Shown here one piece after another: positions 3,530 to 59,036 of a stretch of DNA of 64,000 bases. This DNA comes from Microvelia longipes (lineage: Eukaryota > Arthropoda > Insecta > Hemiptera > Veliidae). Every line of letters starts with the position of its first letter. Within the stretch, counting starts at the first letter, position 1. The DNA lies in contig JACMZG010001908.1 in NCBI GenBank assembly GCA_018340805.1, positions 34,551,294 through 34,615,293 on the forward strand. The letters are read 5' to 3'. The position numbers and the translations under genes were made by a program. Below the pieces are notes generated by a model. That model did not search any database, was not told the origin of the DNA, and saw nothing but the letters and a program-made list of their open reading frames with translations.

Positions 3530-4140
3530 TACTATATTTTATTGTAACAATAAAATTATATTTAGTATATATTTACTATCTTTTACAGTAAATCTAAAAG
3601 TTATATTTACTATCTATTATACTAACTATAATACAAAATTAATATAAAATTATTGACCAAACTATTTAAACTATAATATTTTGTAATGTTGGCCCCCTTT
3701 TGTATTCAAACTAGATCTTTGTTTAGAAGTAGGTGTCGTTCCCGATGGTATACACAGTTAGCTATTGTTACATTAATATAACTAATGTTTTATTTTTATG
3801 TGTTATCTGATTCAGTTTGGAATAAAACTACTTCTGATGAAGGCCTAATTTACGGCCGAAAGCTCAAATTTTGTGTTTTCTTTACCTATCTGACCATTTC
3901 CTCATAAAATTATATAGTCTAACTATAATAGTTATATTTACTATCTTTTATAGCAACAATAAAGTTATATATACTATCTTTTACAGTAACTATAAAAGTT
4001 ATATTTACTATCTTTTATAGCAACAATTAAGTTATATATACTATCTTTTACAGTAACTATAAAAGTTATATTTACTATCTTTTATAGTAATTATATACGT
4101 TATATTTTCTATCTTTTATAGTAACTATCAAAGTAATATA
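3530..4140. repeat. AT-rich tandem repeats (TATTTACTATCTTTTATAGT units)
   Basis: Irregular tandem units of TTATATTTACTATCTTTTA and AGTAACTATAAAAG, interrupted at about 3650-3910 by less repetitive DNA that includes a hammerhead-like motif. Confidence 0.65.
3827..3873 (+). ncRNA. Hammerhead-ribozyme-like motif 1
   Basis: CTGATGA (3834-3840), then stem II GGCC ... GGCC around an eight-base loop, then GAAA, then self-complementary AGCT and a CUC cleavage triplet. Stem I pairs only partly. Pattern match; activity not shown. Confidence 0.5.
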
Positions 4141-4556
4141 ACTACCCATATTCTAGAGTAACAATAACAGAATTAGTTTGAACCTATAGTGCACCTATAC
4201 AAGTTATATAGGTCAAACCCCGTTTGTTTTACAAACGTATAAATATATTTAGATTCAGATGACACCCCATATCCCAATGTTAAATGTTAATGTTGTAACA
4301 AAACTAAACTTTTGTGTTCTTAAATTCAATGTTTTACAATGTATGTAAAAAATAGTGCATTTATTCATTTGAGGCATGAAAATAATTAATAAAGTTTTTT
4401 AAATGATTTATTTATTTTAGTTACATAGCTAAAATTATTGAAATAATTAACAATCAGATTTGTAAAATAATGTCATTTTATAGCGTTAGAATGATTGAAA
4501 AAGAAAACGAAATCTTCTCTCAAAATTAGCTCCGGTTAGCTTGTTTAGCTGTCTCA

Positions 4557-57000: not shown

Positions 57001-59036
57001 AATTGATTCCTCATCCATATTTTCCCACACTGTCTAATGATTATAACCGTGTGTAATACAATGGTAGCAGTCACCCTTAATGAATTTCCTGTGAGATGCC
57101 TCCTATATATTATGCTGGCATTACACTAATTCAATGCTTTCCTTATTAAAGTTAAAATTTATTATTTAATAATTGTATGTATTTGGTTTTGTTTGATTAG
57201 ATCCAAGATGGTAAATTTAGTGTTGAAGGATCCAAAAAATTAGCTGCTGCTAGATTCGAAAAGAAAGAAGATCTCGACAAAGCTAATGCTCTTATTGACA
57301 CATGCGCTAAAGAAGGTAAGGCAAATATTGTAAATTTAGAACATCATAAGTATTCCTAAAGAAAATTATACCATGTGTTAAAAATGAAAGAATTACGGGA
57401 ATTGTCTTAGTCAAATTTTTACTTTTCTTTATATGCTACAATAAATGTATAAATAAGTAATTTGCTCACAACCATGGTTGGTAATGAGGGTTCCGTGGGT
57501 TCAAAGAAGTAAACTTCCTATTGATTCTTAACCAGTTACATATGTATATATATTCACCACTCAGAGAAAGAATCTCCGCAAAAACCATAAAAGCCTTTTA
57601 CAAATATTCATGTGCAAAAATTCTATGTAGGGTTTACCATTCCTACCATTGCAGATATATAAAAAAAGTATTATGTTGGCTCTCAAAATTCCAGACCAAT
57701 ATATTAACAACTTTACAAAATTATCCTTTTAGCCATTTTTATGATATTCTCTATGATATTTATATGCTACCATGATAAATAAAACTAGTACATAAAAAAT
57801 AAGATCTGAAATAATTTATCCTTAGTCTCACTTTTAAGTTTATAGAATTCACACATTTTATATAAATTAAAAACAATGACTTTTAATTCTATAATTTGGT
57901 AAGCTATAAAATTTAAGCTATGGCCATTTCACCCAACACTGTGGGCATCATCAGGCTAATAAACTAAACACCACATTAACAACTAAAGATCACAGAAAAC
58001 AAATAATAGCTTTATTTGTTTTCTGTGATCTTTAGTTGTTAATGTGGTGTTTAGTTTATTAGCCTGATGATGCCCACAGTGTTGGGTGAAATGGCCATAG
58101 CTTAAATTTTATAGCTTACCAAATTATAGAATTAAAAGTCATTGTTTTTAATTTATATAAAAAATAAAAAGATCTGAAATCTTAGATTTTGTAAATATTC
58201 TTACTATTTAGTAAATTGATAAAAGAATTTTTACAATAGTAAAATTTACTTATACATATATTAATTATATACTTACATAAATTCAATTCCATGTATGTGT
58301 CTTTTTAGTAACCAAGAAAGACGGAGAAAAATGCAGTCTTGGACACTCCATCAGGGCCTGCACAATGAAGAACGCAAAGAACGTAAGTCTTTTTATTAAC
58401 ATATAAATTGACACAATAAAATCACTATGGTGATTGTAAGGGCCAGGAATGGAACGCACTGGTCAAGTTACCAGCATTGGCTAAAAGTTTTACAGTGTTT
58501 ATATTTCAATCCAGTGAATATAAATAAAACCATAAACATATTACCAACTACAGAGGCCTTATTGGTTCAATTTTGAAAAATTAAAAAAGTACTCTGCACA
58601 CCTTAACCTGCTTTTTGTTAATTAAACTATTAGTAAGAGGTTCATTTTATTTATAAATTAAAGGCACACCTAATTTAGAGCATTTCTAATAGAAATTGTG
58701 GGGAATTGAAATGGAATTTGGCGTAATAGAACCAATTTGTGATTGTACAAACTTAGTAGGTAAAAATAATCTAGTAATAACGAGACCAAAACATGACACC
58801 TATCTCATTAGCAATTTTTTTCAAACGAAATTCGCTAAAACGAGTTTGACAACCCAAAATCAATTCTAAAAACAAACACTAAGCATATTCGAAATTTAAA
58901 TTTTGGTTTTTATATTGAGGTGTTTTCCTTTTAGTAGTAGTCCTAATGTCTACCACATAGGTTTCAATTTATGAAACTCTTTCAATAATTTTATATTTTT
59001 ACTTTGTTTCAGATCCAATTCTTCAGCCAACATTAA
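50989..59036 (+). CDS. OBP-B: classic six-cysteine odorant-binding protein, seven coding exons
   Basis: Complete precursor of 146 residues, normal for a classic OBP. Exons: 50989-51042, 51304-51388, 52917-52969, 55585-55620, 57201-57315, 58309-58382, 59013-59036, all GT-AG with an unbroken frame. The first 18 residues (MNSSIVLVCFAAIIALSQ) are a signal peptide, so the protein is secreted. The conserved cysteines follow C-X26-C-X3-C-X41-C-X11-C-X8-C, with CFLEC for C2-C3 and C5-X8-C6; one more cysteine lies within the signal peptide. These cysteines form the three disulfides that hold the helical ligand pocket in this family. It shares all intron phases and four exon lengths with OBP-A, so the two are tandem paralogues, about one quarter identical in residues. 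Introns 3, 4 and 5 hold a tandem array, a SINE and three palindromic units with hammerhead-like motifs. The ligand and tissue cannot be told from the sequence. Confidence 0.94.
51304..51388 (+). CDS. OBP-B exon 2 (C1)
   Basis: 85 bp, encoding GAATSKGGLKEKMQALGKKC followed by VQETKATP, leaving phase 1. C1 lies eight residues before the splice. There is no counterpart of the proline-rich extension of OBP-A. Confidence 0.93.
52917..52969 (+). CDS. OBP-B exon 3
   Basis: 53 bp; with the split codon it gives DQSKVIYTRNLPANENER, the C1-C2 spacer. Acceptor tttcag, donor gtaagt. Confidence 0.93.
53035..53275 (+). mobile_element. tRNA-derived SINE, family 2 (full-length), in OBP-B intron 3
   Basis: The head GGGATTAGCAGCC ... 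GGTTCGCATCCC looks like Pol III A and B boxes. The body contains ACGCTCTC and GAGCGTAACGG. The tail TGATGAGCCGTAAGGCTC ... AACGGGCAT ends in an ATC/ATT simple repeat. A second, 5'-truncated copy lies on the - strand at 45405-45580. Confidence 0.7.
53445..53875. repeat. 49-bp tandem array with hairpin monomers (OBP-B intron 3)
   Basis: TCACATAATACTTCCACTCG recurs about every 49 bp, in about nine copies. In each, TATTATCACA and TGTGTGATAATA can pair, so every monomer is a stem-loop. Two monomers near 53610 and 53755 are truncated. Confidence 0.78.
54400..54670 (+). repeat. Inverted-repeat unit with two facing hammerhead-like motifs (OBP-B intron 3)
   Basis: On the + strand, 54613-54654: CCTG, CTGATGA, stem II GGC/GCC, GAAA, ACCGGT, GUC triplet, then CAGG to close stem I with CCTG. 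All conserved core positions are present, with one bulged T before stem II. The mirror copy on the - strand is at 54421-54463. The inner part (54470-54605) is also imperfectly palindromic. Confidence 0.62.
55288..55352. repeat. (AT)n microsatellite in OBP-B intron 3
   Basis: About 60 bp of TA-rich repeats. Confidence 0.9.
55585..55620 (+). CDS. OBP-B exon 4 (C2-C3)
   Basis: 36 bp, encoding CFLECMYTGAGL. Acceptor ttgcag, donor gtaagt. Confidence 0.94.
56653..56886 (+). repeat. Inverted-repeat unit with hammerhead-like motif (OBP-B intron 4)
   Basis: Arms 56653-56706 and 56832-56886 match at all but about four positions. The motif at 56819-56856: CTGATGA, stem II GAC/GTC, GAAA, self-complementary AGCGCT, CUC triplet; the flanks TGCTT and GGCA form a five-pair stem I. 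Confidence 0.6.
56908..57060. mobile_element. Degenerate relative of the 176-bp MITE (OBP-B intron 4)
   Basis: Shares the interior (GTTAGTGCTAGATGTTAAACC, then cacgagcacaa) and a decayed CACTGTCTAATG end with 7643-7818. Terminal repeats are mostly lost. Confidence 0.5.
57201..57315 (+). CDS. OBP-B exon 5 (C4)
   Basis: 115 bp, encoding IQDGKFSVEG...LIDTCAKE, with C4 at residue 35 of 38. Acceptor gattag, donor gtaag. Confidence 0.94.
57856..58162. repeat. Palindrome, 150-bp arms, hammerhead-like motif in each arm (OBP-B intron 5)
   Basis: Left arm 57856-58005, loop 58006-58012, right arm 58013-58162; I found no mismatch between the arms. On the + strand, CTGATGA at 58064-58070 is followed by GCCCA/TGGGT (stem II), GAAA, the palindrome ATGGCCAT and an AUA triplet. 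The left arm gives the same motif on the - strand. Confidence 0.8.
58309..58382 (+). CDS. OBP-B exon 6 (C5-C6)
   Basis: 74 bp, encoding VTKKDGEKCSLGHSIRAC then TMKNAKN. C5-X8-C6. Acceptor tttttag, donor gtaag. Confidence 0.94.
59013..59036 (+). CDS. OBP-B exon 7 (C-terminus, stop)
   Basis: IQFFSQH then taa, after a strong acceptor (actttgtttcag). The following 3' UTR is A-rich. I see no canonical AATAAA close to the stop; the nearest clear ones are near 59618. Confidence 0.9.
   Translation: MQFFSQH

Follow-up and report, generated by a model that had tools for sequence, protein, structure and literature searches.

Head-to-head hammerhead ribozyme repeats attributed to Penelope-like elements in the genome of Microvelia longipes

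Penelope-like elements (PLEs) reportedly carry minimal type I hammerhead ribozymes (HHRs), as set out by Cervera and De la Pena in 2014. The present analysis concerns candidate ribozymes of this kind in a 64,000-nt stretch of DNA from Microvelia longipes (Hemiptera, Veliidae; assembly GCA_018340805.1, contig JACMZG010001908.1, positions 34,551,294 to 34,615,293; hereafter the window). As a whole, these are very probably type I HHRs of relic PLE terminal repeats (pseudo-long terminal repeats, pseudo-LTRs), which were primed from two strands into outward-facing head-to-head pairs and would act as dimers. Several parts of this picture are already known separately, namely HHRs of PLEs, inverted pseudo-LTRs, retrozymes and thousands of HHRs per animal genome. 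In the available part of the source (as for all papers cited here except PMC11167929), PLE HHRs are described as minimal motifs within pseudo-LTRs whose helix III is nearly absent and for which dimer action was proposed (PMC7761336), and action as dimers has been published for HHRs with a weak stem III (PMC6155905, PMC3088659). The protein of the Anolis PLE Poseidon PAc cuts and extends both strands in vitro, starts at two internal sites, which define the tail, and is needed by the element's HHR (PMC11167929). Target duplications of 8-10 bp accompany Penelope of the rotifer Adineta vaga (PMC3846280), and a tail on one arm is also described for PLEs in PMC3846280 and PMC11167929. A coral genome holds >6,000 HHRs (PMC7229834), and an HHR-bearing satellite, Dolichopoda pDo500, is known from insects (PMC2837043). 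Within the accessible parts of the open-licence literature, we found no account of compact head-to-head HHR pairs as a frequent form, of head-to-head arrays built from a type III repeat and ending like PLEs, or of PLE HHRs that always have an additional nucleotide ahead of stem II.

Five motifs reported by a first-pass annotation of the window are all present, with cores starting at 3834 (+), 21148 (–, down to 21120), 54621 (+), 56821 (+) and 58064 (+). Each contains the invariant CUGANGA ... GAA and H17 after the A-U pair closing stem III. Stem II pairs in four copies, as had been stated, and a stem I of at least three pairs adjoins the core in all but 3834; stem III would form only between two copies. 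Also read correctly were the stem III palindromes (AGCT, ACCGGT, ACCGGT, AGCGCT and ATGGCCAT) and the triplets preceding the cut (CUC, GUC, GUC, CUC and AUA). A bulged T noted for three copies proved to be an extra base between CUGAUGA and stem II in all five (four T, one A), and two opposite-strand copies, at 54454 (–) and 57954 (–), had been missed, as had the head-to-head arrangement. With these two copies lying opposite 54621 and 58064, there is one inverted pair at 54 kb and another at 58 kb. The inverted partner of 56821 (56647-56714) is damaged, the short inverted arm of 21148 has no HHR, and self-comparison gave no inverted partner covering the HHR at 3834. Judged by their sequence, the motifs appear to be minimal type I HHRs in which stem III is a palindrome without a loop and stem II is preceded by a single additional nucleotide. 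They resemble the published PLE HHRs in being minimal, in lying in pseudo-LTRs and in their near-absent helix III with its proposed dimer action, but differ from the available descriptions in regularly carrying a nucleotide between A9 and stem II and in a loopless stem III palindrome that spans 4-8 nt.

Chance matches might be suspected in an AT-rich, repetitive genome. The loose motif CTGANGA...GAAA is indeed common, occurring 17 times in the window where 2.9 are expected, and thus proves little by itself; in addition, Rfam is silent. A strict descriptor (stem II of at least three pairs, exact palindrome of at least 4 nt, H17), however, matched five times in the window (3834, 54621, 56821, 58064 and 57954), compared to 21 matches in total, and at most one each, in 400 windows simulated under a Markov-1 model. 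With a stem I of at least three pairs added, four matches in the window stand against three in all 400 simulations. Genome-wide, the type I pattern was found 6,787 times versus 9 in the reversed control, and 17 of 30 loci with a GIY-YIG domain carried the motif versus none in the control. Chance is thereby refuted for the set as a whole and retains next to no probability; even the weak copy 21148 still matches its family D relatives (L020, L021 and L023).

Nineteen HHRs from the window and from genomic loci, picked for diversity, were aligned on the core and their pairs counted by script. Stem I was paired in 35 of 39 cells over 13 distinct variants (shuffle mean 16.0; reached in 0 of 5000 shuffles), versus 16 of 45 when slid by one position. 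Read with one inserted base, stem II was paired in 48 of 56 cells over its first four pairs (14 distinct variants; shuffle mean 37.6, 0/5000) and in 24 of 27 over three pairs (shuffle mean 19.1, 19/5000). Read without the insert, it reached 12 of 39, under the shuffles, and with two inserted bases 17 of 36 (598/5000), no clear excess. The extra nucleotide between A9 and stem II was likewise evident among the 47 distinct cores of the pattern matches listed, 37 of which pair fully with it and none without, and in all 17 descriptor matches at GIY-YIG loci. In 17 of the 19 HHRs, the letters of stem III form an exact palindrome, while in the other two (L044, L065) a G-U pair keeps it paired. Stems I and II covary between families, which agrees with the selection on the RNA proposed in the first-pass annotation, though within the pattern-matched set the pairing of stem II does not significantly exceed shuffles.

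The core might instead be conserved as the start of a PLE reading frame. In family A, to which the 54 kb element belongs, it holds ATGATG, and in L007 and L034 the frame opened by the ATG inside it crosses the tail and stays open for 38 codons (shorter elsewhere); in Anolis, too, stem II is where the PLE frame starts (PMC11167929). Against this explanation, frames from the same ATG stop early in the window copies 3834, 56821, 58064 and 21148, and stems I and II still covary, so that we deem it very improbable. The predicted cut in family A lies 26 nt from the core ATG, and a distance of 26 bp is given for the Anolis element (PMC11167929), which differs in host and sequence.

A genome search for GIY-YIG domains gave 63 matches among 150 scored of 843 candidates, and 30 of the loci were fetched for their HHR context. 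By the strict descriptor, 17 had an HHR downstream on the same strand, 432-753 bp from the domain start (reversed control 0), and six of these had an opposite-strand HHR as well. Three further loci (L041, L050, L051) bore an HHR with irregular stem II under a looser pattern (20 of 30 in all), which was run without a control and matched unrelated strings in other loci too. L069 encodes both RVT_1 (7.9e-10) and GIY-YIG (3e-6) in one frame of 605 aa, with inverted HHRs outside both frame ends, and shows only the inverted arrangement of repeats. In L071, an inverted partial repeat is followed by two direct repeats (1934-2140 and 4883-5089) that enclose two frames with GIY-YIG (5.7e-6; coding in two pieces); each direct repeat holds an HHR, the inverted arms span 1824-1892/2106-2174, and the locus thus combines direct pseudo-LTRs with an inverted partial copy. 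By their predicted reverse transcriptase (RT) and GIY-YIG domains, structure and HHRs, we assign these genomic sources to PLEs. The search for Penelope-like RT beside other genomic copies, which the first-pass annotation had suggested along with a Penelope-like origin, therefore bore fruit, HHRs of this build adjoining RT/GIY-YIG frames in the same genome (L069, L071). In the window itself, the L069 and L071 proteins found no RT or endonuclease coding sequence by tblastn at E 0.01; its PLE copies are repeat-only copies. The stretch 3711-3907 around the HHR at 3834 is 72% identical to the HHR-bearing repeat of L069, and the family B element at 56 kb is 69% identical over 261 nt to the GIY-YIG locus L060 (matching stretch 56815-57059). 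By this homology, the window HHRs are best regarded as relics of PLEs.

The copies follow a consistent layout. Among the first 100 matches listed of the 6,787, neighbors less than 1 kb apart were oriented (–,+) in 16 and (+,+) in 8 cases and never (+,–) or (–,–), i.e. all 16 opposite-strand neighbors pointed outwards. Of the 30 loci L009-L038, some of which are two views of one insertion, 16 have an inverted partner that extends over the HHR, and 11 of these 16 form one compact self-alignment of 231-356 nt, too short for an RT frame. Words of 11-14 nt recur on both outer flanks in six of the 14 inverted pairs compared, versus one of 182 cross-pairings. One-sided tails were judged by eye in nine of the 14 pairs: in eight of these (L003, L007, L027, L030, L034, L035 and the elements at 54 and 58 kb), a single arm is longer by ~37-45 nt. 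The 58 kb element combines its one-sided tail of ~44 nt with a 12 bp target duplication. At 54 kb, the tail (by eye, on the right arm only) comes with no recognizable duplication; shared words of 6 and 8 nt found when duplications were sought at 54 and 56 kb were not accepted. The available part of PMC3846280 reports similar traits for Adineta vaga Penelope (an inverted pseudo-LTR at the 5′ side, a tail on one copy, a preference for head-to-head order), from which the present repeats differ by their many compact pairs (11/16, 231-356 nt) and by duplications of 11-14 nt. Family B HHRs also occur in short direct tandem arrays (C505:4584003-4584414 and C504:13460-14357, about 66 and 198 bp apart), a possible dimer-competent form.

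Strong inverted repeats with target duplications could also mark a foldback or MITE-type DNA transposon, the RNA fold being incidental. Yet stems I and II covary, stem III survives via G-U in two families, the outer ends stop at two internal points instead of fixed terminal repeats, and there is homology to loci with RT/GIY-YIG frames. A DNA transposon is accordingly a highly improbable source.

A second, putatively self-cleaving repeat shows comparable ends. The lead was a below-threshold Rfam match to Hammerhead_3 (37.0 of 48.5 bits) in L021, where a type III HHR lies at L021:2038-2080 (–) within a repeat unit of ~314 bp that is often tandem. A palindrome without a loop makes up its stem I (GGCGCC in L021, with variation there in the reference unit, from L076). 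The genome contains 4,344 exact copies and 9,141 within three mismatches, the reversed control none of either. Among the first 100 places listed, neighbors less than 1 kb apart were (–,–) in 17, (–,+) in nine, (+,+) in seven and (+,–) in no cases, and 22 of the 24 same-strand spacings below 1 kb measured 304-320 bp. Tandem HHR repeats of 150-450 bp are a hallmark of non-LTR retrozymes that this repeat shares; the type I HHR of the described metazoan retrozymes is absent, the repeat being open at stem III and Hammerhead_3 its best Rfam model. According to the available part of PMC7229834, metazoan retrozymes likewise form ~300-nt tandem HHR repeats alongside PLEs in one genome; the Microvelia repeat is set apart from that description by a type III HHR with a loopless-palindrome stem I and by head-to-head arrays within one target duplication. 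For instance, L076, picked for its array, has eight matching HHRs one way and then four the other way inside one 11-nt duplication, and a 622-bp gap may conceal a ninth HHR.

Outer ends were mapped on the type III unit at eight head-to-head loci with both ends in view (two pieces of L074 counting as one; L078-L081 chosen as listed pairs). At six of them (L026, L076, L078, L079, L080, L081), one end falls at 34-46 and the other at 76-87 of the unit, while two diverged loci are off this pattern (L042, 27 and 219; L074, 52 and 54). The six share flanking words of 11-13 nt in four cases and 7-8 in two, cross-pairings reaching at most 8 (n=30), and the single-orientation copy in L021 has a shared flank of 13 nt. 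In the window, 51625-51668 corresponds to the stretch of the unit between the two end points; together with exact 12-bp duplications (51613-51624 and 51669-51680), this match indicates that the type III repeat inserted here too. The type III tail bears no likeness to the PLE tails (p 0.17-0.63, five comparisons), while the tails of family B and L071 are alike (p 0.002). Most unit variants occur singly in L076 (11 to 1) and L077 (9 to 2), but young arrays differ from one another (0.4-0.8%) as little as their own units do (0.6-0.8%), so that proof of copying from one RNA is lacking.

Inverted pairs have been ascribed in rotifer PLEs to snap-back self-priming, whereby one cDNA folds back and copies itself, on the basis of palindromes at inverted junctions (available part of PMC3846280). 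The arms of the 58 kb element, identical over 151 nt, some near-symmetric junctions (e.g. L007) and the diverged L074 (52 and 54) and L042 (27 and 219), which lack two-point ends, would suit such a process. However, an arm made by self-copying would be expected to stop at the end of its template, whereas ~40 nt separate the two outer ends in eight PLE pairs (by eye) and in six of eight type III loci, and the array in L076 is unequal (eight matching HHRs versus four). The two end points, polarity, unequal units and single duplication fit poorly with self-copying cDNA, which we consider an unlikely origin. The same features, with one end point on each side and HHRs that face outwards, do fit the two-strand priming of one staggered cut. 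In such two-strand priming, the PLE enzyme would cut both target strands, each of which would prime reverse transcription of a pseudo-LTR RNA from one of two internal sites ~40 nt apart, and the two cDNAs would join midway into an inverted pair with its HHRs facing outwards.

As stem III is a loopless palindrome, the ribozyme would cleave only as two copies paired through it, either in tandem pseudo-LTRs or between two RNAs, perhaps assisted by the PLE protein. In RNAcofold, two 54621 RNAs are predicted to form a double hammerhead unprompted, with stem III between the copies (–25.3 versus –22.6 kcal/mol for two monomers); from this fold, the palindromes and the published dimer action of HHRs with a weak stem III, we infer dimeric cleavage. 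For transcripts of the head-to-head elements, in turn, the predicted fold is a single long hairpin in which the HHRs are concealed (–248.6 and –163.9 kcal/mol for strands of the 58 and 54 kb elements, respectively), suggesting that the window copies are probably inert products.

Several observations weigh against two-strand-primed, dimer-acting PLE ribozymes. Stem II is broken in 21148, and across the 47 distinct pattern-matched cores its pairing is not significant (37 paired, mean 34.6, 155/2000). Some rows of the 19-HHR set came from the descriptor, which rewards pairing, making stem I in the window and pattern-found rows the cleaner evidence. Of four RNAs folded as dimers, three (58064, 56821, L054) gave stem III pairing or hairpins and no full double hammerhead, so that the dimer-type stem III advanced in the first-pass annotation is borne out by 54621 and not fully by the others. 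No HHR lies within 1.5 kb in 10 of the 30 GIY-YIG loci, no family A HHR was found beside any of the 30, and RVT_1 in L071 is below the Pfam cut-off (19.6 of 29.6 bits). Eight of the 14 inverted pairs lack a clear target duplication, and an arm of L032 ends short of both tail points. Mutants of the Anolis HHR left insertion in vitro unaffected (PMC11167929). Finally, a search of the window with Rfam returned nothing at gathering thresholds and, with E relaxed to 10, still no hammerhead; nor was any type I HHR returned in 20 loci (gathering) or nine loci (E up to 10). The first-pass annotation had named such a lack of covariance-model matches as grounds for dropping its reading; the test is a poor one, since HHRs adjoining PLE frames are missed as well, and Rfam silence therefore says little about the window copies. 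Rather, the Rfam models used here overlook this form of HHR.

Tentatively, one Penelope-type enzyme may move both unrelated self-cleaving RNAs, including a circular type III retrozyme RNA, a possibility that we do not regard as the probable case. Primed by both strands of a cut target, the enzyme would copy the circular RNA in repeated rounds from either side, yielding head-to-head tandem arrays in a single insertion. In both kinds of ribozyme the closing stem (stem III for type I, stem I for type III) is a loopless palindrome, and both would thus be obligate dimers. The type III data support, without proving, the mobilization of retrozymes by PLE enzymes, for which PLEs are named only as likely candidates in the available parts of PMC7761336 and PMC7229834; copying of circular retrozyme RNA by the same enzyme family would be our inference, and other elements could have the same habit. 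If true, a shared enzyme would answer which element mobilizes animal retrozymes, and rules common to two unrelated ribozyme repeats offer a direct, testable link. Beyond this, the duplications, paired end points and outward polarity of thousands of copies provide countable data on PLE insertion, and the questions touched include how PLEs insert, why they keep a ribozyme and what mobilizes animal retrozymes.

Table 1. Coordinates of ribozyme-bearing and associated features in the window
Feature	Position	Strand	Remarks
PLE terminal-repeat (pseudo-LTR) remnant with first HHR	3711..3907	+	72% over 202 nt to HHR-bearing repeat of L069
HHR, stem II GGCC/GGCC, stem III AGCT, predicted cut after CUC, stem I weak (2 pairs)	3834..3865	+	
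HHR, broken stem II AAC/GAC, stem III ACCGGT, predicted cut after GUC	21120..21148	–	
Inverted copy of sequence downstream of HHR 21148	21217..21246	+	partner 21080-21109, 93% over 30 nt
44-bp type III repeat insertion, about unit positions 38-82	51625..51668	+	BLAST 94% over 49 nt, E 6e-14
Head-to-head element, family A	54387..54728		81% over 370 nt to L003; arms within 54421-54654
Left-arm HHR, stem III ACUGGU (one G-U)	54426..54454	–	
Right-arm HHR, stem II GGC/GCC, stem III ACCGGU, predicted cut after GUC	54621..54649	+	exact 29-mer present 34 times in the genome
Head-to-head element, family B, left-arm HHR damaged	56647..56892		arms 56647-56714 / 56825-56892, 88%
HHR, stem II GAC/GUC, stem III AGCGCU, predicted cut after CUC	56821..56854	+	
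Target-site duplication, left copy (AAGATCTGAAAT)	57801..57812		
Complete head-to-head element	57813..58168		arms identical over 151 nt; ~44 nt extra, left only
Left-arm HHR	57919..57954	–	
Right-arm HHR, stem II GCCCA/UGGGU, stem III AUGGCCAU, predicted cut after AUA	58064..58099	+	
Target-site duplication, right copy	58169..58180		

The window contains further repeats. Three other palindromes (17521-17710, 16165-16403 and 36186-36331) have no match to the HHR descriptor, the first of them weakly matching a miRNA-hairpin model (mir-4776, E 0.027, well below the gathering threshold). Pfam gave no support to odorant-binding genes that had been suspected by eye. A dispersed repeat with several inverted copies occupies 11426-12054, 42793-43472 and 49166-49372, and Pfam domains mark remnants of Gypsy-type and Copia-type LTR retrotransposons at 26994-29296 (–) and 37640-41737 (+), respectively.

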